From assembly GCF_019083965.1 (NCBI RefSeq), contig NZ_JAHRCY010000028.1, forward strand, positions 1 through 64,000: a stretch of DNA of 64,000 nucleotides, written 5' to 3'. The stretch comes from Catellatospora tritici (lineage in GTDB: Bacteria > Actinomycetota > Actinomycetes > Mycobacteriales > Micromonosporaceae). A program made the translations under genes and the position numbers. This document shows, in pieces, positions 939 to 62,674 of the stretch. The notes below the pieces were generated by a model. That model was not told the DNA's origin and did not search any database. It saw nothing but the letters and a program-made list of their open reading frames with translations. Position 1 is the first letter of the stretch. Every line of letters begins with the position of its first letter.

Positions 939-3905
939 ATGGTGACCGCCTTCAACGCATTCCTGTCGTACAGCCGCGACGATGCCAAGGTCGCCGCGAT
1001 GCTTCAACGGCGGCTGGAGCGCTATGGTTCGTCACGCCTGTTCAGGCGCAAGGTGCGAGTGTTCCGGGATCAGACCAACCTGCGATCGGATGGCTCGCTG
1101 ACCGACGCGTTGTTTGACGCCATGGGCCGGTCCGACTGGTTCATCCTGCTCGCGTCGGAGAGCTCGGCTGGCTCGGCGTGGGTCACGCAGGAACTGCGGT
1201 GGTGGATATCCAACAGAAAACATGAAGAGGGCTCACTTGATCGCATCCTGATCGTGCGAGCCGGGGGGATCATCGAATGGCCCGCAGGCGCCGAGGACTT
1301 CGACTGGAGCCGGACCACGGCGTTGTCGGGAGACGTGTTCGAGGGTCTCTTTCCCAGTCCCTGGCTGTGGAAGTCGATCTTCCGGCAGGATTCGCCGGGG
1401 CGTGGCAAGGTCGACCCGGACGCGATTGCGTCGCTGGCCGCGACGATACGCGGTGAGAATAAGGACGCCCTGGAACGGCGCCACCAGCGGATCAGAACGG
1501 CGACTATAAGTGCGATCGTCGTGATTGCGGTGCTGGTCGCGGCGTTGGGAATCTATGTCGTTCGGCAGCGGCAGACAGTGCGGGATGAGCAGGTGCAGCG
1601 GGCGGCGGCGACCCTTACCGCTCTGGCGACGGACAGCCGCACTGATTCGAGCTTGGCCGCGTTGCTGGCGCTGGAGGCACACCATCTCGATCCTTCGGCC
1701 AACACCGTCTCGGCGATGGTCGAACTCGCTCAGCGCAACGGTCCGACAGTACGCACCTTCAGTGCAGATGCCTCAGGCATCGCTGATCTCGTCACCGATA
1801 CGGACGGTACCGCGTTCGTTGCTGGGCGGGATGGCGGAGTGACCGTGTGGAATCTACAACGCGGTGAGCTCCTCGGCGAGTACAAGACCGATCAGGCGAT
1901 CATCAAGCTGGCCTTCGACGACGAGCAAGATCTGTTGACGGGCATCGACCGCAGCGGCACTGCATGGTTGTGGAGCAGGAACGACGACAACCGACTAGCT
2001 GAGCTCGAGCGGCTGAGCTCCTCAGCGCCGACTGCCGACTTCGCGGCAGTCGGGTTCGGGTTCATGAGCAGCGGCGCACGGGTGTTCGCGGCGGACTCAT
2101 CCGGCCGCATCATCGTTTGGGACATCACGACGGGAACCGTCCTGTCAGATGCCTCACTGGCCACCTACCGGAGCACCGACGGCCATGACCTCTCGGGCGT
2201 GAGTATTCGGTCCGGCAGCCCAGTCAGCAGCACCTTCGTGCAGGGCACCACGTTCCTGCTCGTAACCGATCAATCAGACGTGCTGCTCGTCGACGCTGAC
2301 CACGCAACAGTCGGCGTCGCGGTACGCAACAGCGATCTACCCGCATCCGCCACGGTCGCGGCCACTGTGCCCGACACCGATTCGAAAGTAATTGTTGTCG
2401 GAACCACGGAAGGCGCGGTTCTGTGGGACCGCAGACGACACAGTCGGATCGCCTATCCTCTTGGGGGCGTCACCGACGCCATCACGTCGGTTGCGGCGAG
2501 TGGCAATGGCACCGTCCTGGCGCTCGGATCGAAAGCCGGCACAGCGCTGGTGCCTCTGCGCAACCAATCCGTAGTGCGCTATCTCATCGACACGGGCGAT
2601 CCGATGCCCGTACCGCCAGCGCTCCCGCGTGCTGAACCAGTAGGTCGCTCTGCGGCGATCCTGGCCTTCGGAAACTTCACCTCCGCACTTGCTGTCGCCC
2701 ATGGTGACGGCACCGTGTCACTCCTGGACGTGGACAACCGTCGCCTCTCCTATCAGGCCGCCCGGGGATCGGCTGTCGTGGCGTTCGATCCGCGCGGAAA
2801 CCTACTTCTGGGCGACAAGACCACCGGCGGCGGTGGGGTCTCCGTTGTCCGCGTAGTTCGTCCTGGCGCGGCGAAGCCGATCGAAGCCTACGCGGGGGAG
2901 AGCTACGAGGCATGGTTCGACATCGTTTACCAAGGCTGGGTCTATGAGAGCGTGGTTGAGTACGCCATGCCTGTCACCTCGGGAGGATACCGCCAGAGTC
3001 TGGTGCTCACCGGCGCTGCCGTGGGGGAGGATTGGGTTGCTGCCGCTGGGCAGGTGAGCAAGGGACGCTCGGCAGTCCTGGTCTGGCGCGTCGATGATCC
3101 GGTTCCGACCTACCTGACGGTTGCCGGCATGACGGCTGTTGACGCACTGGGTGGCTCAGCCAGCGCGCGCATGGTGGTCGCCCGTGGTGCGAGCGAGATA
3201 GCTGGTTGGAGCATCGACAGTGTCGAGCCGAAATTCGTCATCTCGGTCGGTGCGGGCAGTGGTCTGTCCGTGTCGCAGCGCGGGACCCTGGCGGTCACCA
3301 CTGTCACGGCTGCCACGCCCGGCTGTGGGTCGGCCCTCGCCGGGCGGCGTTCCCTGGTTGTTGTCGACTTGGCGAGCGGTGCCTCCTGCACCTACGACGT
3401 CGGGCCTGGCCTGACGGCCGCCGCTGTCAGTGCCGATGCCTCGCAAGTCGCCACGGCGAACGCGAACGGCCTGGTCCTACGTGACTCGAAGGACATGACG
3501 GTCGTGCGCAGCATTCCGCTGGACCTGGGAGGCGGCCAGACGCAGCTGGCCTTCAGCCCCGACGGAAAGCGTTTGGCCGCGTCCCTGGCGGACGGCCGAA
3601 TACTGATCGTCGACACCGGCACCGGCACGCTGGCGCTACCGCCGCTGATAGATCCCATCGGCCGGGCGAGTGGAGCCATTGCCTGGAGTCCGGACGGTCA
3701 GACCCTTGCCGCACTGGCCGCCTCTACCGACCGTGCGGAAAGCAGCGTCGATTTTCATACGAACCTGTGGCGCGTCGGGACGATCTCCTGGAATACGCAG
3801 ATGTGCAGCCTGGCTGGGCGTCGTCTCACGGCTGACGAGTGGAAGACGTATGTGCCTGCGGAAGCAGGCCTTGAGTACACGCCGGTGTGCGAGTCCTTCG
3901 AATGA
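939..3905 (+). CDS. TIR-domain membrane protein with C-terminal beta-propeller
   Basis: 988 residues. Residues 4-135 form a TIR domain: NAFLSYSRDD near the start, FRDQTNL after it, and SAWVTQEL, whose glutamate (about residue 85) sits where catalytic TIR NADases carry theirs. A hydrophobic segment at 191-209 is followed by the RAAATLTALA...ALLALEAHHL linker common in actinomycete TIR/WD40 proteins. From about 260 onward come degenerate WD40-like blades (VTVWNL, IIVWDI, LVWRVDDP), ending in CSLAGRRLTADEW, the usual tail of this group. The predicted topology is TIR inside and propeller outside. The downstream lipoprotein starts only a few bases after the stop, so the two are probably co-transcribed. 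NAD cleavage is inferred from the family, not shown. Confidence 0.85.
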   Translation: MVTAFNAFLSYSRDDAKVAAMLQRRLERYGSSRLFRRKVRVFRDQTNLRSDGSLTDALFDAMGRSDWFILLASESSAGSAWVTQELRWWISNRKHEEGSLDRILIVRAGGIIEWPAGAEDFDWSRTTALSGDVFEGLFPSPWLWKSIFRQDSPGRGKVDPDAIASLAATIRGENKDALERRHQRIRTATISAIVVIAVLVAALGIYVVRQRQTVRDEQVQRAAATLTALATDSRTDSSLAALLALEAHHLDPSANTVSAMVELAQRNGPTVRTFSADASGIADLVTDTDGTAFVAGRDGGVTVWNLQRGELLGEYKTDQAIIKLAFDDEQDLLTGIDRSGTAWLWSRNDDNRLAELERLSSSAPTADFAAVGFGFMSSGARVFAADSSGRIIVWDITTGTVLSDASLATYRSTDGHDLSGVSIRSGSPVSSTFVQGTTFLLVTDQSDVLLVDADHATVGVAVRNSDLPASATVAATVPDTDSKVIVVGTTEGAVLWDRRRHSRIAYPLGGVTDAITSVAASGNGTVLALGSKAGTALVPLRNQSVVRYLIDTGDPMPVPPALPRAEPVGRSAAILAFGNFTSALAVAHGDGTVSLLDVDNRRLSYQAARGSAVVAFDPRGNLLLGDKTTGGGGVSVVRVVRPGAAKPIEAYAGESYEAWFDIVYQGWVYESVVEYAMPVTSGGYRQSLVLTGAAVGEDWVAAAGQVSKGRSAVLVWRVDDPVPTYLTVAGMTAVDALGGSASARMVVARGASEIAGWSIDSVEPKFVISVGAGSGLSVSQRGTLAVTTVTAATPGCGSALAGRRSLVVVDLASGASCTYDVGPGLTAAAVSADASQVATANANGLVLRDSKDMTVVRSIPLDLGGGQTQLAFSPDGKRLAASLADGRILIVDTGTGTLALPPLIDPIGRASGAIAWSPDGQTLAALAASTDRAESSVDFHTNLWRVGTISWNTQMCSLAGRRLTADEWKTYVPAEAGLEYTPVCESFE

Positions 3906-5056: not shown

Positions 5057-5176
5057 CGACTCAATGAACTGGTTGCGGTCAGGCGAGACGCGTCGTGCGA
5101 CACGACCTGGCCGTCGCGATCGAGGAGCTTCAGAAGCGCTTCGACTCAGGGCACAGCATCGACGGCATGGCTGACG

Positions 5177-5290
5177 GGCGCTGTTGCGTTGAGCGTTGGC
5201 CTGATCGCGGGCAGCCACGAATGCGAACGAGACGAGGACTTCACCGCTCGAGTCTGCCTCGATCACGCCAACGCTCAATGCAACAGCCCC
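5177..5290. mobile_element. Solo IS6 remnant made of two inverted left ends
   Basis: 5177-5209 reads GGCGCTGTTGCGTTGAGCG..., an IS6 left end pointing right. 5210-5290 is the reverse complement of another left end, including the first transposase codons, and finishes ...CAATGCAACAGCCCC. The 114-bp unit therefore has two left ends facing each other and no right end or transposase. It resembles an internal deletion product of two head-to-head copies, or an incipient MITE. The preceding 5057-5176 shows only a short open frame cut off by the remnant. Confidence 0.75.
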
Positions 5291-12210: not shown

Positions 12211-13029
12211 GGGGCTGTTGCATTGAGCGTTGGCGTGATCGAGGCAGACTCGAGCCGTGAAGTCCTCGTCCCGTTCGCGTTCGTGGCTGCCTGCGAGGTC
12301 GGCGTTCGCCGGGTTCCGGTTTCCGCCGGAGGTGATCGTGGTCGCGGTGCGGTGGTACCTGCGCAGCGGCTTGTCCTACCGCGATGTTGAGGAGCTGCTG
12401 GTCGAGCGGGGCGTCGAGGTCGATCATGTCACGGTGTTCCGCTGGGTGCAGCGGTTCACCCCACTGCTGGCCGACGCCGCGCGGTCCTGCCGACACTCGC
12501 CGGGTGACCGCTGGTTCGTCGACGAGACCTACGTCAAGGTCGGCGGCGTGTGGCGGTACGTGTACCGGGCCGTCGACCAGCACGGGCAGGTCATCGACAT
12601 GCTCGTGTCCACCCGCCGCGACGCCGTCGCGGCCCGCAGGTTCTTCCGCAGGGCGCTGTCGAGGTTCAAGACTCCGACCGAGGTGGTCACCGACGCCGCC
12701 GAGGTCTACCCGGCCGTACTGGATGACCTCGTCCCGCAGGCGTGGCACCACGTCGAGCAATACGCGAACAACCCGATCGAGGCTGACCACAGCCAGCTCA
12801 AACACCGGTTGAGACCGATGCGCGGGCTACGCACCGACAGCACGGCGCAAGTGATCATCGCCGGACACGCGTTCATGCAGGACCTACGCTGCGGACACTA
12901 CGAACTCTCGATCGACCTTCCGCCCACCCGGCGGGTCGCAGCCGCATTCGTCGAACTCGCCCAGGCGATCTGACCCGAGGCAACCACCAAGATCCACCAT
13001 GTCCAGTGACCCGATAACGCAACGGCGCC
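12211..13029 (+). mobile_element. IS6-family insertion sequence, apparently complete
   Basis: An 819-bp element. The left end is GGGGCTGTTGCATTGAGCG and the right end reads ...ATAACGCAACGGCGCC. The outer 10-12 bases form imperfect inverted repeats of the IS6/IS26 type (GGCnCTGTTGC). One full transposase gene lies inside. The flanking 8-mers are not obviously identical, so no clean target duplication is visible. Confidence 0.85.
12257..12973 (+). CDS. IS6-family DDE transposase
   Basis: 238 residues from a GTG start 46 bp inside the left end. An N-terminal HTH region (YRDVEELLVERGVEVDHVTV) is followed by the DDE catalytic core: Asp in RWFVDETYVKV, Asp in TEVVTDAAEVY and Glu in NNPIEADHSQLK. 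It ends LRCGHYELSI...FVELAQAI. All catalytic positions are intact, so it may be active and could act on the defective copies and MITEs elsewhere in the window. Confidence 0.9.
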   Translation: MKSSSRSRSWLPARSAFAGFRFPPEVIVVAVRWYLRSGLSYRDVEELLVERGVEVDHVTVFRWVQRFTPLLADAARSCRHSPGDRWFVDETYVKVGGVWRYVYRAVDQHGQVIDMLVSTRRDAVAARRFFRRALSRFKTPTEVVTDAAEVYPAVLDDLVPQAWHHVEQYANNPIEADHSQLKHRLRPMRGLRTDSTAQVIIAGHAFMQDLRCGHYELSIDLPPTRRVAAAFVELAQAI

Positions 13030-22903: not shown

Positions 22904-23719
22904 GGGGCTGTTGCATTGAGCGTTGGCGTGTTCGTGGGCACACTCGAGCGGTGAAGTCCTCGCCCCGTCCACGTTCGTGGCTGCCTGCGAAGTCGGCGTT
23001 CGCCGGGTTCCGATTCCCGGCGGAGGTGATCGTGGTCGCCGTGCGTTGGTACCTGCGGTTCAACCTGTCCTATCGTGATGTTGAGGAACTGCTGGTCGAG
23101 CGTGGGGTCGAAGTCGAACACGTCACGGTCTACCGCTGGGTGCAGCGGTTCAACCCGCTGCTGGCCGATGCCGCACGGTTCTGCCGGCACTCGCCGGGTG
23201 ACCGCTGGTTCGTCGACGAAACGTACGTGAAGGTCGGCGGGGTGTGGCGGTACGTGTACCGGGCGGTCGACCAGCACGGGCAGGTCATCGACGTACTCGT
23301 GTCCACCCGCCGCGATGCCGCGGCGGCCCGCAGGTTCTTCCGCAGGGCGCTGTCGAGGTTCAAGACCCCGACCGAGGTGGTCACCGACGCCGCCGCGGTC
23401 TACCCGGCCGTGCTGGATGACCTCGTCCCGAAGGCGTGGCATCACGTCGACCAGTATGCGAACAACCGGATCGAGGCCGATCACAGCCAGCTCAAACACC
23501 GGTTGAGGCCGATGCGCGGGCTACGGACCGACAGCACGGCGCAAGTGGTCATCGCCGGACACGCCTTCGTGCAGAACCTGCGCCGCGGACACTTGAACTC
23601 TCGATCGACCTTCCGCCCACCCGGCGGGTCGTTGCCGCGTTCGCCGAACTCGCCCAGGCGATCTGACCCGACGCCACTACCAAGATCCACCATGTCCAGT
23701 GACCCGAGAACGCAACAGC
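22904..23719 (+). mobile_element. IS6-family element inserted into an older IS6 copy
   Basis: The left end GGGGCTGTTGCATTGAGCG starts at 22904 inside the reverse-oriented remnant. The right end GAGAACGCAACAGCA finishes at about 23719. Length (816 bp) and layout equal those of the complete copy at 12211-13029, but the transposase gene is frameshifted. Confidence 0.85.
22951..23666 (+). pseudogene. IS6 transposase with a late frameshift
   Basis: GTG 22951 starts a normal transposase with VDETYVKV, VVTDAAAVY and NNRIEADHSQLK; the position before Ile is Arg instead of Pro. Near 23592, GGACACTTGAAC replaces the GGACACTACGAAC of other copies, losing one base. The normal stop at 23664-23666 is missed and the open frame runs to 23745. 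The DDE residues are present, so partial activity cannot be excluded. Confidence 0.8.
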
Positions 23720-23722
23720 ACC

Positions 23723-27700: not shown

Positions 27701-28183
27701 GGGGCTGTTGCGTTTAGCGTTGGCATGATCGCGGGCACACACGAGCGGTGAAGTCCTCGCCCGTTCGCGTTCGTGGCTGCCTCCGGGGTCGGCGTTCGCC
27801 GGGTTCCGGTTCCCGCCGGACGTGATCGTGGTGGCGGTGCGGTGGTACCTGCGCTACGGCCTGTCCTACCGCGATGTCGAGGAGCTGTTGGTCGAGCGCG
27901 GCGTCGAGGTCGACCATGTCACGGTCTACCGCCGGGTGCAGCGGTTCACGCTCCTGCGGGCCGAGGCGGCACGATTCTGCAGGCACTCGTCAGGTGACCG
28001 GTGGTTCGTCGACGAGACCTACGTCAAGGTCGGCGGGGTGTGGCGGTACGGGTACCGGGCCGTCGACCAGCACGGGCAGGCGATCGACGTGCTCGTGTCC
28101 GCACGCCGTGACGCCGCGGCGGCCCGCAGGTTTTCCGCCGGGCGCTGTCGAGGTTCAAGGCCCCGACCGAGGTGGTCACCGAC
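27701..28183 (+). mobile_element. IS6 copy truncated by the next IS6 copy
   Basis: The left end GGGGCTGTTGCGTTTAGCG begins at 27701. The transposase start (GTG 27748) loses one base within the first ten codons. The catalytic first Asp segment (RWFVDETYVKV) is intact, and a second deletion follows near 28130 (RRFSAG). At 28184 the next IS6 left end begins, so the second Asp, the Glu and the right end are gone. Confidence 0.85.
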
Positions 28184-29003
28184 GGGGTCTGTTGCGTAGA
28201 GCGATGGCATGGGCGAGGCAGACTCGATCGGTGGAGTCTTCTCGTCGGCCAGGTGCGCCTCTACCCGCGAACTCAGCCTTCGCCGGGTTCCGGTTCCCGC
28301 CGGAGGTGATCGTGGTTGCCGTCCGGTGGTACCTGCGGTTCAACCTTTCATATCGCGACGTAGAGGAACTGCTGGTCGAGCGCGGCGTCGAGGTCGATCA
28401 CGTAACCGTCTACCGGTGGGTGCAGCGGTTCACGCCCTTGCTGGCCGAGGCCGCGCGGCCATGCCGGCACTCGCCCGGTGACCGCTGGTTCGTTGATGAG
28501 ACTTACGTCAAAGTCGGCGGTGTGTGGCGGTACGTGTACCGGGCCGTTGACCAGCACGGGCAGGTTATCGACGTGCTCGTGTCCGTGCGCCGTGACGCCG
28601 CCGCGGCACACAAATTCTTCCGCTGTGCACTGGCGACGTTTCAGGCCCCGACCGAGGTGGTCACCGACGCCGCCGCGGTCTACCCGGCAGTGCTGGAGGA
28701 ACTCGTCCCGTCAGCGTGGCATCATGTCGAACGCTACGCCAACAACCCCATCGAGGCCGACCACAGTCAGCTCAAACGGCGGCTCAGACCAATGCGCGGG
28801 CTACGTACCGACAAGACCGCACAGCTCGTCATCGCCGGACATGCCTTCATCCAGAACCTGCGCCGTGGACATTACGAACTCACCACCGACGCGACGCCGG
28901 CCCGGCGGGTTGCTGCCGCGTTCGCCGAACTCACCCAAGCGATCTGACTCGAGGCTGCAACGACAATCCAGGCTGCCGGGCGGTCCGCCAATGCAACAAC
29001 ACC
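28184..29003 (+). mobile_element. IS6-family element, complete and divergent
   Basis: The left end GGGGTCTGTTGCGTAGAGCG at 28184 interrupts the previous copy. The right end ...CCAATGCAACAACACCC lies at about 29003. It differs from the other copies in both ends and in the transposase N-terminus, so it is a separate lineage. On its far side it abuts a truncated ATPase gene. Confidence 0.8.
28231..28947 (+). CDS. IS6-family DDE transposase
   Basis: 238 residues from GTG 28231. It carries RWFVDETYVKV, TEVVTDAAAVY and NNPIEADHSQLK, so all three catalytic residues are present, and it ends FAELTQAI. The frame is open upstream to 27874 through the previous, broken copy, but the start inside its own left end matches the others. 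Probably functional. Confidence 0.88.
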   Translation: MESSRRPGAPLPANSAFAGFRFPPEVIVVAVRWYLRFNLSYRDVEELLVERGVEVDHVTVYRWVQRFTPLLAEAARPCRHSPGDRWFVDETYVKVGGVWRYVYRAVDQHGQVIDVLVSVRRDAAAAHKFFRCALATFQAPTEVVTDAAAVYPAVLEELVPSAWHHVERYANNPIEADHSQLKRRLRPMRGLRTDKTAQLVIAGHAFIQNLRRGHYELTTDATPARRVAAAFAELTQAI

Positions 29004-40128: not shown

Positions 40129-40702
<574 letters not shown>

Positions 40703-44865: not shown

Positions 44866-45118
44866 CGACTGTTCGTCTCCTGATCGGCTCGGGTGGCGGA
44901 TGGCCGTGGCCGGGCCGGTAGGGCGGTCAGAACTGTGACGGTGCCCTTGTTGCAGCAAGGCCCCTATCGGGACACGCCCCACTGGCCTGGCGACAGATTG
45001 CGCTCCCTGGACCGGGTCGACAGATCAGCATGAAGGCATCGAGCGAGCCAGTTGCGTTACGGGTCAGACCGCAGCCCGGGGAGTACGGCTCTACACTTCC
45101 AGAGCCGCAACCTGAGCC

Positions 45119-45941
45119 GCACAGTTGCGTTAATGGATCGCCAGGCGCGATGGATCTTGGACATTGTCTCGGGTCAGATCGCCTTGGCGAGTTCGGAGAA
45201 CGCTGCGGCGACTCGGCGACTCGGCGGGTGGGCGGGACCTCACTGGCGATCTCGTAGTGTCCGCGGCGCAGGCTCTGCATGAAAGCGTGTCCGGCGATGA
45301 TCACCTGTGCGGTCCTGTCGGTCCGCAACCCGCGCATCGGTCTCAATCGCTGTTTGAGCTGGCTGTGGTCGGCCTCGATCGGGTTGTTCGCGTACTGCTC
45401 GACGTGATGCCACGCCTGCGGCACGAGTTCCTCCAGTACCGCCGGGTAGACCGCGGCAGCATCGGTGACCACCTCGGTCGGGGCCCGAAACGTCGACAGC
45501 GCCCGGCAGAGGAATCTGCGGGCCGCGGCGTCGCGGCGGGCGGACACGAGCACGTCGATGACCTGACCGTGCTGGTCGACCGCCCGGTACACGTACCGCC
45601 ACACCCCGCCGACCTCCACATAGGTCTCATCGACGAACCACCGATCACCAGGTGAGTGCCTGCACGGCCGTGCCGCCTCGGCCAACAGGAGCGTGAACCG
45701 CTGCACCCACCGGAACACGGAGACGTGATCAACCTCGACCCCACGCTCGACCAAGAGCTCCTCAACGTCGCGGTAGGACAGGCCATAGCGCAGGTACCAC
45801 CGCACTGCGACCACGATCACCTCCGCCGGGAACCGGAACCCGACGAACACCGACTTCGCAGGCAGCCACCGACGCGAACGACGCGAGGACTTCACCACCC
45901 GAGTCTGCCTCGATCACGTTGACGTCCAACGCAACAGACCC
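45119..45941 (-). mobile_element. IS6-family element, minus orientation
   Basis: The left end lies at 45941 (reverse complement GGGTCTGTTGCGTTGGACG). The right end is at about 45119 (CACAGTTGCGTTAATGG on the plus strand). Length 823 bp. The left end cuts into a histidine-kinase gene. Confidence 0.82.
45174..45898 (-). pseudogene. IS6 transposase broken by an 8-bp tandem duplication
   Basis: Residues 1-215 are normal, with RWFVDETYVEV, VVTDAAAVY and NNPIEADHSQLK. At 45211-45226, ACTCGGCG occurs twice in a row. The extra 8 bases change the frame after PPTRRV, and the open frame then runs beyond the right end to 44927. The DDE core is intact and only the last about 13 residues are altered, so activity is possible. 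Confidence 0.8.
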
Positions 45942-54485: not shown

Positions 54486-54521
54486 CGGGCGGCGGCGCCA
54501 CCGTGGTGGGCCCGCCGCCCG
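54486..54521 (+). terminator. GC-rich hairpin after the SUKH-like gene
   Basis: CGGGCGGCG (54486-54494) pairs with CGCCGCCCG (54513-54521). Its right half is also present at the beginning of the repeat copy at 57094. Confidence 0.65.
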
Positions 54522-54680
54522 GCCTGTTGATCACGGAAGTAGCAGGTCGTCTGCCATCGTGATCATGTACTTGGGGTTCATGTAGCCCCGGAGACTCCAG
54601 ACTTCGTCAACGGAGCTATCTTCCCTGTTGAGAGGCATTCCGTGGACCGCGCCTGGGAATGCGTTTTCGGGACTGGCGGT
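54510..54680 (-). pseudogene. C-terminal fragment of an unknown protein (copy A)
   Basis: The minus strand encodes NAFPGAVHGMPLNREDSSVD, then EVWSLRGYMNPKYM and ITMADDLLLP, stop at 54531. Copy B at 57094-57240 encodes the same tail with several replacements. Upstream of this segment (54680-54930) the frame dissolves into short tandem repeats, so the gene is no longer whole. I do not recognise the family. Confidence 0.5.
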
Positions 54681-55556: not shown

Positions 55557-56000
55557 ATGAAGCGATTCAAAGTAGGGGCGGCCGTTGTCGCTCTGGTTGC
55601 CTCTACGGTTATCAGCGTCGTCGGCGTGTCCACTCCGGCGCAGGCAGCCTCGAACTGCCGGGTCTCGCCCTATTCGGCGTCCTTCAGCAGGGATCTGTCG
55701 GTCGGGTCAGGCGTGGCCCTGTTGCCGAGCTCGACGACGGTCTACACCACTACGTCGCAATGCAGTGACATCCAGATCAAATCGACCAACAGCGTCGCAT
55801 TGCTCGCCTGCGTGATCTTCACTTCGCACACGTCGTCCTGCAACTACACCACTTATGTGCCGTATACCGGCGGGTGGGTCAACATCGCCACCGACGTGCT
55901 CGACGGCACAAAGTTCCGGGTACAGGTCACCCTGTACCCGGAGTGCGGCAATGTGGGCCAGGTCTGCGGCGGCACTGCCGCGGGCGTTCTTGACTTCTGA
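55557..56000 (+). CDS. Small exported protein with two cysteine pairs
   Basis: 147 residues from ATG 55557 (MKRFKVGAAVVALVAST). Sec signal with cleavage near AQA-AS (about residue 31). The mature part is about 115 residues and beta-rich, with Cys in ASNCRVS, SQCSD, LLACVIF, SSCNYTT, PECGN and QVCGG. It is probably disulphide-stabilised and released into the medium. No family recognised. A terminator follows directly. Confidence 0.75.
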   Translation: MKRFKVGAAVVALVASTVISVVGVSTPAQAASNCRVSPYSASFSRDLSVGSGVALLPSSTTVYTTTSQCSDIQIKSTNSVALLACVIFTSHTSSCNYTTYVPYTGGWVNIATDVLDGTKFRVQVTLYPECGNVGQVCGGTAAGVLDF

Positions 56001-56010
56001 CAGCGCATGG

Positions 56011-56041
56011 GTGAGGTCCGCGGGTTCTCCACGGACCTCAC
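56011..56041 (+). terminator. Hairpin terminator
   Basis: GTGAGGTCCG (56011-56020) pairs with CGGACCTCAC (56032-56041), eleven-base loop, ten bases after the stop of the small exported protein. Confidence 0.75.
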
Positions 56042-56087
56042 CGCTCATGCCGCCGTCCCGGGAAGTCCCGTAGCGGCGGCGGGCCGT

Positions 56088-56410
56088 TCAGGACGCGGCT
56101 TCCTCGCCCGACATGGCGGCGGCCAGGCGCAGGTAGGGCACCGCTTCGGCGTGCCGACTCTGGCGTTGCAGCGTACGTCCCGGCATCAAGTGTGCGTACT
56201 CCTCGGTAGGATCGCTGTCGAGCACCCAGCGCAGCTCCGCCTCGGCCCGCTTGAGCTGGGCGGAGAGGTAATACGTTCGGGCCAGCAGCAGCCGTGGTGC
56301 AACATCGCCGGGGGCTTCGCGGACCACCTCCGCCAGCAGCGGGGCAGCGCTGAGATAGTCGCCGGCGTCGAAAAAAGCCGGCCACGCTCGTACGTTTCGA
56401 TGATCGTCAC
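56088..56410 (-). pseudogene. TPR protein with a homopolymer frameshift
   Basis: From GTG 56410 (GAGAGGGAG upstream) the protein starts VTIIETYERGRLF. At a run of six T (minus strand, about 56368) the frame must shift to continue DAGDYLSAAPLLAEVV, then APRLLLARTYYLSAQLKRAE and DPTEEYAHLMPGRTLQRQSR, ending SGEEAAS at 56088. Seven T would restore one open frame of about 107 residues with two TPR units. This may be a real mutation, a slippery site or a sequencing error. Confidence 0.65.
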
Positions 56411-56499
56411 CAGTTCTCCCTCTCGGCTGGATCGCGTCGGATCACTGATGATCAGAACATGGTTGACGTGACAACTATGCCGCTGGTCTCCCGGTCCGG

Positions 56500-56946
56500 A
56501 TGACTTCGCCGGTTCGTTCGGTCGAGGTCCCCGCGCTGCTGATCGCGGTGACAGCGTTCGGCCCCTGCGAGATCGTGCTGGCGCCGGACGACCCTCGGAT
56601 GCTCGAACTCGCCGCGTCGGCTGGCGCTCGGCGTGGCAGGACTCGGGCCTTCCGATCCGATGACAGCCTGGAAATCGAGTTCGAAGACCGGCGAGGTGGC
56701 ACGAGCCCGAGCGCTCCGGCAGGTCACCTACGAGCAGGCGCTGGCCGCGCTGGCGAGCATGGGGTTGCGTACGACCATGCCGGATGAGTGGGAGTGGGCG
56801 TGTGGAGCGGGCGCGGCGACACTCTTCCGCTGGGGTGACGACTGCGACGGACGTCTCCATCAATCTGAGCATCGCGAACCTGGACTTCGCCGGTTTCGCA
56901 GACGCCGCAGACGAGTCCGACGGGTTTCGAGGTTTCGACCGCGACT
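56500..56946 (+). pseudogene. Decayed gene with an FGE-like segment
   Basis: Plus-strand pieces in three frames: VEVPALLIAVTAFGPCEIVL and DPRMLELAASAGA; then VTYEQALAALASMGLRTTMP with DEWEWACGAGAATLFRWGDD; then FAGFADAADESDGFRGFDRD with a stop at about 56946. DEWEWACGAGAATLFRWGDD resembles the core of formylglycine-generating-enzyme-like proteins. From 56947 to 57093 there is no gene. Confidence 0.5.
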
Positions 56947-57093
56947 GACCCCGGGGTGGAGCGCGTTGCAGAGAATGTCGTGCTCCAGGTGTCACTGATC
57001 GACAAGCGGCGAGGTCTCCGGTAGACCGTTCAACGACCAAGAAGAACTAAATCGGAGACCTCGTGAATCTCGTATGTCAAGTCGTCTGCGTGG

Positions 57094-57240
57094 TCGGCCG
57101 CCGCCCGGCCAGCTGATCATGGAAGTAGCAGGTCGTCCGCCATCGTGATCATGTACTGGGGGTTCATGTAGCCCCGGAGACTCCAGACTTCGTGAACGAA
57201 GCTGTTTTCCCTGTTGAGAGTCCTTCTGGGGGCCGCGTTG
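57094..57240 (-). pseudogene. C-terminal fragment of an unknown protein (copy B)
   Basis: The minus strand encodes RNALPNAAPRRTLNRENSFV, HEVWSLRGYMNPQYM and ITMADDLLLP, with a stop at about 57112. It is the counterpart of copy A, with replacements in the less conserved part and an almost unchanged tail. The right half of the A-side hairpin is included. No coding precedes it. Confidence 0.5.
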
Positions 57241-57299
57241 GGGAGTGCGTTTCGGGTCGGGGTCCGACTCGAGTACATGGGTATTGCTACGGCTCGCTT

Positions 57300-58205
57300 C
57301 TACTTCTTCGGGCAGGCCAGTGTGGCGGCTGCCGGCGGTCCGGCGGGAAGCTGGGTGTCGGGCGCGGCGGGGAGTGCGCCGGGCGATACCGGGCTGCCGA
57401 ACTGGCTGTGGAACCGGTGCACGCCCTCCCAGCTGCCGATGAGGCGGAGTGGTTTGTCGGGTGTGCCGATCCAGGTGTTGAGTTCACGGTCGGCGTCGAG
57501 GTATCTGATGCGCACGCCGAACTCGTACAGGCCCTGGCAGGCGTAGACGTCCATCTTGATGTCGGCGGCGTCCCCACGTGAGACCGTGAACGTCGGTCCG
57601 AACGGAGCGGCTTTGGCTTGCGGGTTGTCGGCGCCGCCGTTGGAGACGCCTAGGTCTTTGACCGTGCCTTGGTCGAGAACTGTCTGGAGGTGGCGGACCT
57701 GGGATGGTCCGCCGCAGCCGGGTTCTGCCTCCAGGCCCCAGGCGGGTGTGACGTCGTGGCGGGCGAACACTTTGGGTTCCACGGCGAGGATCAGTAGGGG
57801 TTCGCTGTTGGCGCCGGTGAGGGTCATGTTGAGTACGCCGTGGTACCAGACGACGGCGTCGAGCTGTCGAAGCGCCATGTTCCTGACGTCTTCGGACTCC
57901 GACGGGGTGAGGGTGTCGGGTAGCTTCGGCCCGGTCCCGGCGACGGCGATCGTGGGATCGCAGAGGTACGGATCGTCTGGCGGCCACTGCGCGATGGTGA
58001 TCAGCTTCGCTGCAGCCGAGGGTGTGGGCTGCGGCGCAGGTGTCGGCCAGATCGCGTCGACCAGGCGATCGCCGAGCGGGGAGGCAACCGCTCCGATGAT
58101 GAGCAGCATGAATGCTGAGAGGGTGGAGATCACGGCTGCTCGGTGGCGGCGTAGCCAGGTCTTGGTGTTGCCTGTGCGGCGGGCGCGGCGATCTCTTGGC
58201 GGCAT
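57300..58205 (-). CDS. Membrane-anchored extracytoplasmic protein
   Basis: 301 residues from ATG 58205 (GGGAG six bases upstream; GTG 58241 would add 12 residues). A basic cytoplasmic start (RDRRARRTGNTKTWLRRHR) is followed by one helix (VISTLSAFMLLIIGAVA) and a Pro-rich linker (PTPAPQPTPS). The external domain contains WPPDDPYLCDPTIAVAGTG, SESEDVRNMALRQLDAVVWY and TFTVSRGDAADIKMDVYACQ, with six cysteines. I do not recognise the domain. Confidence 0.7.
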   Translation of the reverse strand: MPPRDRRARRTGNTKTWLRRHRAAVISTLSAFMLLIIGAVASPLGDRLVDAIWPTPAPQPTPSAAAKLITIAQWPPDDPYLCDPTIAVAGTGPKLPDTLTPSESEDVRNMALRQLDAVVWYHGVLNMTLTGANSEPLLILAVEPKVFARHDVTPAWGLEAEPGCGGPSQVRHLQTVLDQGTVKDLGVSNGGADNPQAKAAPFGPTFTVSRGDAADIKMDVYACQGLYEFGVRIRYLDADRELNTWIGTPDKPLRLIGSWEGVHRFHSQFGSPVSPGALPAAPDTQLPAGPPAAATLACPKK

Positions 58206-58328
58206 CAGAATCTCCCAGCTGGCGGCTCGGGAAGTATTCACTACGCAGAAGCCGAAAATCGGCGTAGCACTCGTGCGTCACTCGGTAGGGGAGTCCTCGG
58301 CTCCGCGTTAGCGTGAACTCCGCACAAG

Positions 58329-58542
58329 GGCCCTGTTGCATTGGGCGATCGCCAAGATCGGCAGCCGCAGAACTTGTAGCGAGATCGAACTCGCGCGCCC
58401 GTAGCGGACATCAGGATCGGGACAAAGTGGTGCTATCGGCATCGCTCGGCGGCGACCGATCGCCAGTTTTTGCAGGCCGTCCCATGCTCACACAGAAAGA
58501 TCTGCGGCGCCGGGCGTGCACGATGGCTAATGCAACAGCGCC
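58329..58542. mobile_element. MITE with IS6-like terminal repeats, copy 1
   Basis: 214 bp. The left end GGCCCTGTTGCATTGGGCG and the right end ...GCTAATGCAACAGCGCC form inverted repeats of the IS6 type. The interior has no gene. It differs at only a few positions from copy 2 at 60051-60265. No 8-bp target repeat is obvious. Confidence 0.85.
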
Positions 58543-58683
58543 TTCGGGCTGGGGGGCACGGCGAACTTTGACGGCGACATCGAGCGCTTGCGCGGAACTT
58601 GAGCATGATCACACTGCCCTACCTGCCGTTGACCTGCGGTTTAGTATCTCACGCGATCATCGGTACCCGATCGGAGCAGTTCC

Positions 58684-59847
58684 TTGTCCCACCCCTCCCT
58701 CTCTCCGACTGCCGACGCACCCCGCACCGGCCCGGCCGCCCGAATGTGGCCCTCGCTGGCGATGGCCTGGCCCGCGCTGGCCGTCTACATCCTCGTCCGT
58801 GCCACCGGCGTGATCGTCTTCCTGCTGTGGGCGGACCGGTATCACCGCGACGGCTGGGAGCTCCTCGGTACCCGCATGGACGGCGGGCAGTACCTGAAGA
58901 TCATGATCGAGGGGTATCCCGGGCCGGAGACCGTCTTCCACAACGGCATGGCGTTCTTCCCCCTTTTCCCCGCGCTGGGCCGGGCCGCCGACTGGCTGCT
59001 GCCGTTCCCTACCAGCACCTGCGCGATACTGGTCAGCTGGGCCGGGGCGCTGGCCGCGGCGTGGGGCATCTACGCGGTCGGCGCGCATGTCCGCGACCGG
59101 CGCACCGGCGTGCTTCTGGCTGCGCTGTGGGGACTGCTGCCGCACGCGATCATCGAGTCGATGGCATACACCGAGGCGATCTTCACCGCGTTCGTCGCCT
59201 GGGCCCTGTACGCGGTGCTGCGCGAACGCTGGATTATGGCAGGAGCGCTGACGCTGCTGGCCGGGCTGACCCGGCCTACCGCCCTGGCGGTCATCCCGGT
59301 GGTAGGGCTCGCCGCCCTGATCACGGTGGTCAAGGGCCGAGACCGTTCATGGCGACCCTGGGCGGCGATGGTGCTCGCGCCGCTCGGCTGGCTTGGCTAC
59401 ATCCTGTGGGTGGCCCAGCGCACAGGACGGTTGGACGGGTACTTCTACATTCAGGGTGAGGGCTGGGGATCCCGCTACGATGGCGGAGTCAACATGGTCC
59501 GCAAGGTGTCGGAGTTCCTCAAGTACGAGGCGAGGAACCTGGACTACTACCTCGTCCTGTTCGTGTTGGTCGCGGCCCTCGTCCTGCTGGCAATCTCTGT
59601 CATCGACCGCCAGCCGTGGCAGCTGGTGGTATACAGCGCGCTGATGCTCGTCATCACCCTCGGCGGAGAGAATTACTACAACGCCAAGGCGCGGTTCCTG
59701 CTGCCCGCCTTCGCGCTGCTGTTGCCCGTCGCGACCTCCCTGGCGCGTACCAAGACGGCCACGATGGTCATCATCATGGCGACCCTGGCGGCCGCATCGG
59801 CCTACTGCGGCGTCTATCTCGTGCTGATCTGGCAGTGGTCGCCCTAG
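58684..59847 (+). CDS. GT-C-type membrane glycosyltransferase (PIG-V/ArnT-like)
   Basis: 387 residues from a TTG start at 58684 with CGGAGC upstream; ATG 58744 (MWPSLAMAWPALA) is an alternative. About ten hydrophobic helices. RMDGGQYLKIMIEGYP in the first loop holds the Asp that binds the polyprenyl-phosphate donor in GT-C enzymes. MAFFPLFPALGRAADWLLPF and ESMAYTEAIFTAFVAWALY follow, as in mannosyltransferases of the PIG-V type. It probably transfers a sugar from a lipid carrier outside the membrane. It lies between two MITEs. Confidence 0.8.
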   Translation: MSHPSLSPTADAPRTGPAARMWPSLAMAWPALAVYILVRATGVIVFLLWADRYHRDGWELLGTRMDGGQYLKIMIEGYPGPETVFHNGMAFFPLFPALGRAADWLLPFPTSTCAILVSWAGALAAAWGIYAVGAHVRDRRTGVLLAALWGLLPHAIIESMAYTEAIFTAFVAWALYAVLRERWIMAGALTLLAGLTRPTALAVIPVVGLAALITVVKGRDRSWRPWAAMVLAPLGWLGYILWVAQRTGRLDGYFYIQGEGWGSRYDGGVNMVRKVSEFLKYEARNLDYYLVLFVLVAALVLLAISVIDRQPWQLVVYSALMLVITLGGENYYNAKARFLLPAFALLLPVATSLARTKTATMVIIMATLAAASAYCGVYLVLIWQWSP

Positions 59848-60050
59848 CATCGACCCCGAAGACAGGGGCGTGGGCACGGCGCGTGACCAGACTGCGGGGA
59901 CTGGACGCTGTCACGTACCTTCGCCCACTCGCCACCGGCACGGCTGATACGGGTGCCTGGCCGCAGCTGCGGGGTCGACGGAGGCTTGCGCGCGCTCCTT
60001 GCTCTCGCTCACGAGTAGCTCTGCCAGAAGCAGCCGAGGGGACGCTGTTG

Positions 60051-60265
60051 GGCCCTGTTGCATTGGGCGATCGCCAAGATCGGCAGCCGCAGAACTTGTA
60101 GCGAGATCGAACTCGCGCGCCCGTAGCGGACATCAGGATCGGGGCAAAGTGGTGCTATCGGCATCGCTCGGCGGCGACCGATCGCCAGTTTTTGCAGGCC
60201 GTCCCATGCTCACACAGGAAGATCTGCGGCGCCGGGCGTGCACGATGGCTCAATGCAACAGCGCC
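60051..60265. mobile_element. MITE with IS6-like terminal repeats, copy 2
   Basis: 215 bp, same orientation as copy 1. The few differences include G for A in GATCGGGGCAAAG and one extra C near the right end (GCTCAATGCAACAGCGCC). The right end adjoins the tail of an IS6 transposase, so this copy seems to sit at or in a former IS6 element. Confidence 0.85.
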
Positions 60266-60346
60266 CACCGAACTCGCCAAGGCGATCTGACACGAGACCG
60301 TCACCAAGCTCCACCATGCCCGGCGACCCGACAACGCAACAGCGCC
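60266..60346 (+). mobile_element. IS6 right-end remnant
   Basis: CACCGAACTCGCCAAGGCGA continues to the transposase stop and the right end ...CGACAACGCAACAGCGCC at 60346, as in the complete copies. Only about 80 bp remain; the front ends where MITE copy 2 begins. Confidence 0.8.
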
Positions 60347-60482
60347 GTCGCAACTCCCCATAGCGCGGGATGATTGCGTGTCCGGCGAGGGGAGCCTCAA
60401 CGGGCAGATCCCTCCGCCAGGAGGCGGAGGGCATACCATTGCGGTGCCTGTCTTGGTTGTACGAGCAGGGTGGGATTGCGGC

Positions 60483-61406
60483 TCACGCTGCTGAGGCACG
60501 TTGGTGTGGATGCGCCGGAAGGCTGTGAGCTTGGGATGTGAGCTTGAGCGGGATCTCCGAGTCGGGTGCTTCGTAGCGTCCCTTCGTGGTTCCGGTTCCG
60601 AGTAGCTGCTGGCGTAGAACAGAATCGCTGTCGATGCTGTCTGGAAGCCGCGTGTCGAACCTCGGCCGCAGCCACCGGAAGGCATAGCCGATGAAGACGG
60701 CGTGCCGTGTGTTGGGCGAATCGTTCGGGCTTCCGCCGTGCCAGAGGCGCCGGTCGAATATCAGCACGTCGCCCGCGGAGGCGAGGATGGGGATTCCCTG
60801 GTCGTGATGGAGACCGTCAGCGCTATCGGTTTGATCTGCCAACGGGATGCGGTGGCTGCCCGGCACGACCCAGGTGTTGCCGCATCCGGCGTGGTGGGCG
60901 TCCGTGAGGTAGAAGCCAGCTTTCACTGACAGACGTGGCGCCACTGGCAGCTTCAGGTCGCGCTCAATGCCGTCGCTGTCCTGATGGAATCTCAAACCTG
61001 CCCCAGTGGGGTTGCGGCCATCTGGTTCCGCCGGGTCTTCAGATTGGTCCGGGTTACCTGCTGACCGTGAGATGGCTTCGCTCATGTAGACGTAGATGTT
61101 GTCGCCGAGCATGCGTAAGACCAGCGACAGCACGAGGGGATCATCGACGAGGTCGACTAGCTGGGGGTCGTATGAGATGACATCGTTGATTACGAGATCT
61201 GGGTGGCGGGTCTCCCACCCCGGGTCGATCTGACTGCCTAGCCGCTCGAGGATATTTCGATAGCGAGCAACGTGCTGCGGGGAAAGTCTGCCACTTAAGA
61301 GGATCAAACCCCAGTTCTCAAAGTCGTCGATCGCAACTTTGAGCTGCTCTGGTGTCTCCAAATCAGATGGATCATATCTCGGGATGTGTGGTGTGGCCGA
61401 GGTCAT
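60483..61406 (-). CDS. Phytanoyl-CoA dioxygenase-family Fe(II)/2-oxoglutarate enzyme
   Basis: 307 residues from ATG 61406, with GGGAGG upstream. RFHQDSDG gives the iron ligands His and Asp (about 141 and 143). IFDRRLWHGGSPN gives the distal His (about 223), and NTRHAVF the Arg (about 234) that holds 2-oxoglutarate. WVVPGSHRIPL is the usual signature loop. These enzymes hydroxylate or otherwise oxidise small molecules, often in natural-product pathways. It is divergent from the dehydrogenase gene. Confidence 0.88.
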   Translation of the reverse strand: MTSATPHIPRYDPSDLETPEQLKVAIDDFENWGLILLSGRLSPQHVARYRNILERLGSQIDPGWETRHPDLVINDVISYDPQLVDLVDDPLVLSLVLRMLGDNIYVYMSEAISRSAGNPDQSEDPAEPDGRNPTGAGLRFHQDSDGIERDLKLPVAPRLSVKAGFYLTDAHHAGCGNTWVVPGSHRIPLADQTDSADGLHHDQGIPILASAGDVLIFDRRLWHGGSPNDSPNTRHAVFIGYAFRWLRPRFDTRLPDSIDSDSVLRQQLLGTGTTKGRYEAPDSEIPLKLTSQAHSLPAHPHQRASAA

Positions 61407-61648
61407 TGGGAGTGACCTCCCGCAGACCGGCTCGGACAAGCGTGGCGCTCTAAGTCTCTCAACGGGACCTCCCGCAATGCTGCAGACAGGTTAAATCACG
61501 GCAAACTTCGCAGAGTGTGACGACCTCGCATGCTAGCCGAACATAGGGCAACGTCGATTATAGCAAGATGATGGCGGTCTAGCTAGGCTGGCAGTGTGCT
61601 GATGCTCGGTGAGGGAGCGGCGCCGCCGGGAATGGCGGTGCTCTGATC

Positions 61649-62674
61649 GTGCCGAAGGTGCTGATGGCCGATGGCCACAACGGTCTTTGCTTCGTCGATA
61701 CGCCGTCTTGCCCCCTGCAGCCGTGGCAGGTTCGTGTCTCGGTGACGTGCACGCTGGTCAGTCCGGGAACTGAACTGCATTACCTCGATGTCGCGATGCG
61801 GACGGGGTCACGGTATCCACTTGGCTATTGCGCTGCCGGCCGGGTCACCGAGGTCGGCGTGAAGGCAGGCGATCTTCGCCCTGGCGACCGGGTTATCGCG
61901 ATGGGATGGGGGGCCGCAGTCCACGCCGACGAGGTCGTCGTCCCACGCCTGCTCTGCTGCCGGCTACCCGATCACGTCACGTTCGATGACGCCGTGATCG
62001 CCAACCTCGCGGCGACGGCGGTGCACGCACTGGACCGCGGTGGTGTCCGGGAGGGCGACGAGGTGACCGTCATCGGCGCGGGGATTGTCGGCCAGTTGCT
62101 CGCCCAGGCGGCGCGGGCCCGCACGTCCGGCGCGGTCACGGTCGTCGACGTCTCCGATGAGAGACTGGCGACGGTGCGCGCGACGGCAGTGCGGACGATA
62201 CAGGGTGCGGAATTCATCGAATCCGGCTACGAGACATCCTCTGCCACAAGGTGCGCGTTCGTGTGCGTGTCCGGGGACGCGACCGCTGCCATGGGTGCGG
62301 CCTTGTCATGGGTGGCTGCCGGGAAGTTCCGTGGGAGAGTCGTTGCCGTCGGCCGCTTCGCCGCCAGCATCGACTTCTCGGCCGACCTTGGCAACGTCGA
62401 CATCCGGGTGGCCTCGCGCTGTGGTGCAGGCTACCGGGACGACGAGTACCTGTCGGGGCAGCGCGGTGTCGCGGTGCCACCTGGTGAGGCTACGGTTGAC
62501 CATAACCTCGCGCGGGCGCTGGACCTCGTCGCCTCGGGCGTCCTCGGCCGTCGGCACATGGCGATCCCGGTCGCTGCGTTTACTGAGGCGGTGTCCGTGT
62601 ACGACCGGCTACGCACTGATCGTTCGATCGTTTCGGTCATCTTGCGATATGAGCCAGTGAACGGCTCCCCATGA
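61649..62674 (+). CDS. Medium-chain (zinc-type) dehydrogenase-like protein
   Basis: 341 residues from GTG 61649. The GroES-like part has TLVSPGTELHYLDVAMR and GDRVIAMGWGAAVHADEVVV. The Rossmann part has EVTVIGAGIVGQLLAQAARA (GAGIVG). The SPGTE motif places it with BchC-like and secondary-metabolism MDR enzymes rather than ordinary alcohol dehydrogenases. The structural-zinc cysteines are not apparent. Substrate unknown; it faces away from the PhyH-like gene. Confidence 0.83.
   Translation: MPKVLMADGHNGLCFVDTPSCPLQPWQVRVSVTCTLVSPGTELHYLDVAMRTGSRYPLGYCAAGRVTEVGVKAGDLRPGDRVIAMGWGAAVHADEVVVPRLLCCRLPDHVTFDDAVIANLAATAVHALDRGGVREGDEVTVIGAGIVGQLLAQAARARTSGAVTVVDVSDERLATVRATAVRTIQGAEFIESGYETSSATRCAFVCVSGDATAAMGAALSWVAAGKFRGRVVAVGRFAASIDFSADLGNVDIRVASRCGAGYRDDEYLSGQRGVAVPPGEATVDHNLARALDLVASGVLGRRHMAIPVAAFTEAVSVYDRLRTDRSIVSVILRYEPVNGSP

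Follow-up and report, generated by a model that had tools for sequence, protein, structure and literature searches.

Two nearly identical short repeats enclose a single gene in a 64,000-nt stretch of the Catellatospora tritici genome (the window), which lies on contig C21 of a 9.59-Mb, 47-contig draft assembly with 6% contamination. The question raised by this locus is whether the repeats and the gene together form a mobile unit. An earlier note on this DNA had read the repeats as MITEs with IS6-type ends, and the 1.9-kb stretch that they delimit as a possible mobile module. What IS6 elements are best known for is the movement of resistance genes by means of full IS copies. Annotation would miss short, gene-flanking ends with IS6 tips, and such ends would show that IS6 transposases can drive gene capture from 215-bp ends in soil actinomycetes; if the bracketing is incidental, the locus is a warning against calling composite transposons from flanking repeats alone.

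The repeat pair and its IS6-type tips

Pairwise comparison bore out the description of the repeats as 214-215-bp direct copies with few differences around one gene: the two share their orientation and 99% identity from end to end, and are distinguished by three differences, namely two substitutions and one 1-bp gap (Table 1). Because of this full-length identity, and because the genome contains three further copies of the element, chance was excluded, and the MITE pair around one gene is a real arrangement, consistent with known IS6 chemistry. Inspection of the six frames of the 215-bp element revealed no transposase-like frame, its termini form 49-bp imperfect inverted repeats (73%), and a hairpin forms over its whole length (z -4.2); being short, with terminal inverted repeats and no transposase ORF, it belongs to the MITE class. 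The promoter scan found none, terminator-like sites numbered two, one per window MITE, against 0.7 expected, and the search of plasmid and phage collections returned 0 matches. When 14 elements were folded jointly, the consensus contained 33 pairs, 2 of them changed on both sides, with a covariation term of 0, and hence gave no indication that the MITE is a selected RNA.

Table 1. Coordinates of the features discussed, in positions of the window.
Feature	Position	Strand	Remarks
MITE copy 1	58329..58542	+	214 bp, IS6-type tips
MITE copy 2	60051..60265	+	215 bp, direct repeat of copy 1, IS6-type tips
IS6 right-end remnant	60266..60346	+	81 bp, abuts MITE copy 2 without a spare base; 98% identical to C21:79058-79138
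Decayed 3' tail of ribonuclease Z gene (rnz)	58565..58622	+	start of the enclosed segment; right limit approximate
Gene of glycosyltransferase-like membrane protein	58684..59847	+	TTG start, 387 codons, uninterrupted ORF
Downstream stretch common to native loci	59848..59988	+	end of the enclosed segment
Sixth MITE copy, truncated and diverged	40278..40414	-	MITE positions 1-60 at 75%, 104-136 at 88%
IS6 transposase ORF	44927..45898	-	candidate trans-acting partner
Full-length IS6 element	22904..23722	+	both ends, no 8-bp target duplication (control)

The MITE tips (left, GGCCCTGTTGCATT; right, GGCGCTGTTGCATT, as reverse complement) were scored against the IS6 left ends at 12211, 22904, 78328, and 90526 of C21, and 12-13 of 14 and 14-17 of 18 bases were alike. 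Beyond this tip of approximately 18 nt, 5-8 of the next 22 bases agreed with the same four ends, which is near chance; the proposed match of the repeat ends to IS6 ends thus holds for the outer part only. The available text of PMC6807381 gives a conserved G at positions 1, 2, 7, and 10 for the TIR of short bacterial IS6 members, and these four residues of the IS6/IS26 consensus are kept at both ends of all five full copies in the genome. The MITE interior had no match in the IS6 copies of C21 and C39, and the element therefore carries IS6-type tips yet is not a deletion product of a local IS6. The genome contained 18 words of the GGCNCTGTTGCA pattern, and 12 of the same pattern reversed as a control; six further sites were fetched, of which five had no MITE match beyond the word and one (on C37) was an IS6 end.

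Of the five full MITE copies in the genome, two are those of the window and three lie on contig C39 (98, 93, and 92% identity), and all own copies, including the relic listed in Table 1, are confined to C21 and C39. The MITE was absent from the ten other genomes of the genus that were searched. Among 354 Micromonosporaceae, relatives or fragments were found in the own genome and in 11 others, a count obtained from a DNA search that matched 12 genomes, with G303 removed as chance and G108 added by the left-end pattern. The G303 match and a second match in G338 (25-27 bp) were both dropped as chance. Since only two candidates per genome were scored, the MITE counts for the family are lower bounds. 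Three of the MITE-bearing genomes (G184, G193, and G261) hold a right-end piece only, and the left-end pattern gave 15 matches in the 354 genomes, 8 of them in G329. Elements of different genera align over their full length, interior included, with the exception of those of G033 and G260, which have diverged interiors. Such alignment across genera points to one old lineage of Micromonosporaceae and not to repeated fresh deletions.

Origin of the enclosed gene

The enclosed gene had been described as GT-C-like. An intact 387-codon ORF was found, but no Pfam family was assigned at E 0.001, and the NCBIfam match, to the cell-surface glycopolymer family NF046093, was weak and far below the cut-off (30 bits against 150). 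As a family assignment is lacking, the glycosyltransferase label rests on the impression of the earlier reader and on the look of the sequence.

At the DNA level, the segment 58565-59988 showed 73% homology to genome G008, and its part 58764-59988 showed 75% to a locus on contig C12 of the own genome; recognizable homology starts 22 bp after MITE copy 1 and stops 62 bp before copy 2. In C12, G008, and G009, the glycosyltransferase gene follows the ribonuclease Z gene, and a PALP/CBS-domain gene is found further on; rnz was named by NCBIfam for C12, and the G008 and G009 proteins begin alike. Compared with these three loci, the window retains remnants of the rnz C-terminus (FDGDI and ARNLSMITLP), split over two frames. 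The native gene order and the rnz tail at the segment start indicate that the segment is a transplanted piece of the rnz-glycosyltransferase locus, and, as judged from these alignments, the window gene is a second, transplanted copy of this chromosomal locus. The earlier note had named as fatal to its reading a gene that keeps the same neighbours, without MITEs, in all relatives; what was found is that the native neighbours lie elsewhere.

The window protein is 65-67% identical to those of C12, G008, and G009, which are 83-90% identical among themselves, and the phylogenetic analysis placed it just outside the native three (support 0.996 for the three and 0.858 for all four; G003 was left out of the tree and of the identity and dN/dS comparisons). 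The dN/dS values were 0.39-0.43 between the window gene and the native genes and 0.28-0.42 among the latter, and this similarity indicates that selection has constrained the window gene over most of its history. The divergence of the window gene from the native ones is far older than the MITE pair.

A stretch of about 107 bp at 59882-59988 recurs downstream of the native glycosyltransferase loci, and is also present in G002, G004, G005, and G006 without the rest of the gene. It was considered as a candidate RNA, but no support for this was found; the Rfam search covered window positions 56000-62000 at E 0.5 and returned no match.

Relatives of the glycosyltransferase (E<=1e-60) occur in 100 of the 354 genomes. 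None of these matches outside the window lies beside a MITE match, with two MITE candidates scored per genome, and the MITE-glycosyltransferase-MITE unit was seen once only. Target duplication was likewise absent from the outer edges of the window pair, whose flanks are CGCACAAG and CACCGAAC. What stands of the proposed 1.9-kb mobile module is therefore its IS6-type tips, a likely partner transposase, and the transplanted gene copy; movement of the unit as such found no support in these searches.

Junctions, mosaic DNA, and candidate IS6 partners

On balance, the locus is best accounted for, with a little more confidence than doubt, by a transposase-less IS6-type MITE that was mobilised in trans and came to bracket a captured gene in a pseudo-compound-like structure. 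The MITEs would be copies of the old IS6-tipped lineage that lacks a transposase, and resident IS6 transposases would have moved them in trans; the cargo would be a piece of the chromosomal rnz-glycosyltransferase locus of a relative, or an old duplicate. This cargo may have been placed between the direct MITEs by IS6-style events, i.e., copy-in cointegration, adjacent deletion, or a MITE-plus-gene circle inserting beside a resident MITE, and the outcome would be built like an IS6 pseudo-compound transposon in which MITEs replace the full IS copies. Both the role of IS6 in trans and the succession and nature of these events are inferred.

The IS6 remnant that abuts MITE copy 2 corresponds to the right end of the intact IS6 copy C21:78328-79138, the rest of which is missing beside the MITE. 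On C39, the DNA to the right of the MITE at 4899-5113 matches a HAD-hydrolase locus of G010 at 95%, whereas that to its left has no G010 match. The alignment starts at 5089, inside the MITE, and on inspection the true homology begins about 2 bp after it; the G010 upstream DNA matches C39 11770-12005 instead (74%). One MITE of G329 occupies the place where an IS110 transposase gene should begin; of that gene, Pfam profile positions 52-155 of 155 remain, and the translation of the other side of the MITE gave no sign of the missing start. These MITE junctions look like adjacent deletions or fusions. Both kinds of event are known from IS6 elements.

A second bracket is formed on C39 by MITEs at 3224 (-) and 4899 (+), which are inverted; the 1,460 bp between them contain one likely gene, a 316-aa ORF that was assigned to no Pfam or NCBIfam family. 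In G329, two inverted MITEs enclose about 1.26 kb with small ORFs only. Pairs in inverted orientation are at odds with a functional IS6 pseudo-compound transposon, according to PMC7986276.

The serious rival, which we hold to be possible though somewhat doubtful, is that the bracketing is incidental: C21 and C39 would be a scrap heap of IS-driven and other rearrangements, in which MITEs, being sites of recombination and transposition, would often lie at junctions, two such junctions happen to flank one gene, and no MITE-gene-MITE unit formed or moved. In accordance with it, the stretches compared with the genus (window 56.9-61.7 kb and C39 1.7-15 kb) correspond, one gene after another, to separate loci of different members, and of six single-gene blocks looked at only the glycosyltransferase block and C39 3721-4614 are MITE-bracketed, the other four having a MITE on at most one side (window 57304-58293; C39 1937-2723, 5116-5871, and 12215-12977). 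Since four of six blocks lack a MITE pair, bracketing alone is weak evidence, and as single transplanted genes are common in this DNA, a MITE on each side may be coincidence. The absent outer duplication and the inverted orientation of the second pair, unlike that of functional IS6 pseudo-compound transposons, agree with this as well. However, both close MITE pairs of the genome enclose about one gene each, and when five copies were placed at random in 9.59 Mb, two disjoint pairs of less than 2 kb arose in 0 of 200,000 trials, a figure to be read with the proviso that IS6 activity itself clusters copies.

The G+C content was 66% for C21 and 68% for C39, against 72-74% around three native glycosyltransferase loci and 66.5-73% in six other stretches of the genus. 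Both contigs are rich in IS6 and, where compared, form a patchwork of single-gene blocks drawn from many loci; they may represent a plasmid, a chromosome arm, or an island. In addition, a 155-bp repeat at window 54512-54666 and 57098-57252 has several relatives in the genus (e.g., G008:C2 and G006:C30).

An 8-bp target duplication was found at none of the 16 MITE copies with both ends, several of which are recent; 15 were checked by script at the exact boundary with up to 2 mismatches, and the G033 element by eye. Duplications were also missing from all five full-length IS6 elements of C21 and C39 (the end pairing C39 13213-13922 was false and was left out of this count) and, by eye, from two further IS6 copies with readable ends, L159 only loosely, among 10 loci looked at. 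Cross-copy duplications, as expected after IS6 inversion, numbered 0 at up to 2 mismatches and exact boundaries in all pairings of left and right ends, taken separately among the five own copies and among the other 11, L036 being included with a misplaced right end. As described in the accessible part of PMC7986276, IS26 structures need not carry target repeats, and intramolecular replicative transposition removes them. With duplications missing from the local IS6 too, their lack at the MITEs neither proves nor excludes an IS6 agent. Inverted repeats next to some of the insertion points had hinted at insertion into hairpins, but this was rejected, as the shuffle test gave p<0.1 at 1 of 16 sites, L085, which consists of two facing IS6 left ends.

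The window had been said to hold at least two intact IS6 transposases, and four near-complete frames without stops were found (12257, 22951, 28231, and 45248), the last of which is an IS6 transposase by NCBIfam (205.9 bits against a cut-off of 125). The genome has 19 IS6 transposase matches, 10 on C21 and 2 on C39. All 11 other MITE genomes had an IS6 match at E<=1e-40, compared to 12 of 39 controls (Fisher p 3.6e-5), and at E<=1e-100 the figures were 8 of 11 and 6 of 39 (p 6e-4), the MITE-negative controls being a hand-picked, non-random set from three of the five genera of the MITE genomes. Because of this choice of controls, and because IS-rich genomes may hold more of everything, the co-occurrence supports, and does not prove, the resident IS6 transposases as the partner of the MITE. 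In G033, G108, and G338, the best IS6 match is incomplete and broken by stops, and IS6 without a MITE match was found in each of the three controls from the genus of G329. An IS6 scan around the 15 left-end pattern matches detected transposase frames at two loci only: that of G260, where they lie next to a separate IS6 end belonging to them, and that of G338, where they are fragments.

Several composite arrangements were noted at these loci. A 114-bp mini-element at window 5177-5290 consists of two facing IS6 left ends without a transposase, and at 27701-29003 two IS6 copies are fused head to tail, the first being truncated. In G193 (L052 4396-5782), a MITE right end lies about 600 bp beyond an IS6 left end and transposase, possibly forming a hybrid element, and in L085 of G329 two inverted IS6 left ends enclose a MITE.

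That a different transposase, one that makes no target duplication, moves the MITEs, with the 18-nt IS6 likeness due to shared descent or convergence, is improbable. It would suit the 49-bp imperfect terminal repeats, the interior unrelated to local IS6, the 0 of 16 duplicated copies, and the broken IS6 matches that are all three MITE genomes offer; the 18-nt tip match with its conserved IS6 positions, the IS6 co-occurrence, and the local IS6 elements that also lack duplications argue against it, as does the scan around the 15 pattern matches, a weak test given that it addressed IS6 only. Least credible is an assembly error by which near-identical 215-bp repeats joined unrelated contigs, for which the draft state, the contamination, and the position of the repeats at homology breaks could speak, since the copies carry private differences, the junction IS6 remnant and the rnz tail are informative themselves, and the same kind of junction occurs in another genome.

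The preferred reading, a trans-mobilised IS6-type MITE that came to bracket a captured gene, thus draws on the tips, the copy number, the cargo origin, the IS6 co-occurrence, the IS6 remnant abutting copy 2, the second bracket, and the MITEs at breaks. Against it stand the missing duplications, the unmatched interior, the broken IS6 in three MITE genomes, the IS6 without MITE in three of three controls, the single occurrence, and the four of six blocks without a pair; the balance is narrowly in its favor. A bolder and unlikely extension is that IS6-type MITEs package single chromosomal genes in Micromonosporaceae (two here, perhaps one in G329), which then move as MITE-gene circles inserting beside resident MITEs and leaving no target duplication. 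If true, genes would be travelling much as cassettes do, driven in trans by IS6 transposases.

Relation to known IS6 and MITE structures

IS6 MITEs and MITE-bounded composites are already known from the accounts cited here, and the window case is a variant of these. Two IS6-family MITEs, of 227 and 336 bp, are counted in PMC7986276, and two of the IS6/IS26 family, MITEBth2 and MITEHarch3, are named in PMC6807381; the counted and the named ones are taken to be the same two. Among the literature matches listed, titles and abstract openings mention no IS6-type MITEs in actinomycetes and no genes bracketed by them. Like MITEBth2 and MITEHarch3, as far as these are described in the excerpts, the window element has IS6-type ends and no transposase; unlike them, by their descriptions only, it occurs in Actinomycetota, its interior is largely conserved over several genera, and it is paired around single genes.

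Direct-repeat structures of the IS6 type are termed pseudo-compound in PMC6807381, being immobile as a unit without homologous recombination. The window pair resembles IS6 pseudo-compound transposons and IS26 translocatable units, as portrayed in PMC7986276, in having direct repeats around a passenger with no target duplication needed. It differs from them in that its flanks are 214/215-bp MITEs without a transposase and not full IS6 copies, and a transposase would therefore be needed in trans. The C39 pair, being inverted, lacks the direct repeats of an IS6 pseudo-compound transposon, whereas the window pair has them.

TIME-COMPs and the integron mobilization unit (IMU) consist of two MITEs around a passenger of about 1 to >10 kb, in direct or inverted orientation; in one account (PMC13367494), they are classed among the Tn3-type TIMEs, with resistance genes in every case and with 5-6-bp direct repeats in all except the IMU ones. 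Like these structures, the window presents two MITEs around a passenger gene; unlike the TIME-COMPs of that account, it has IS6-type tips, no short direct repeat (mostly 5-bp in those), and a housekeeping-like gene.
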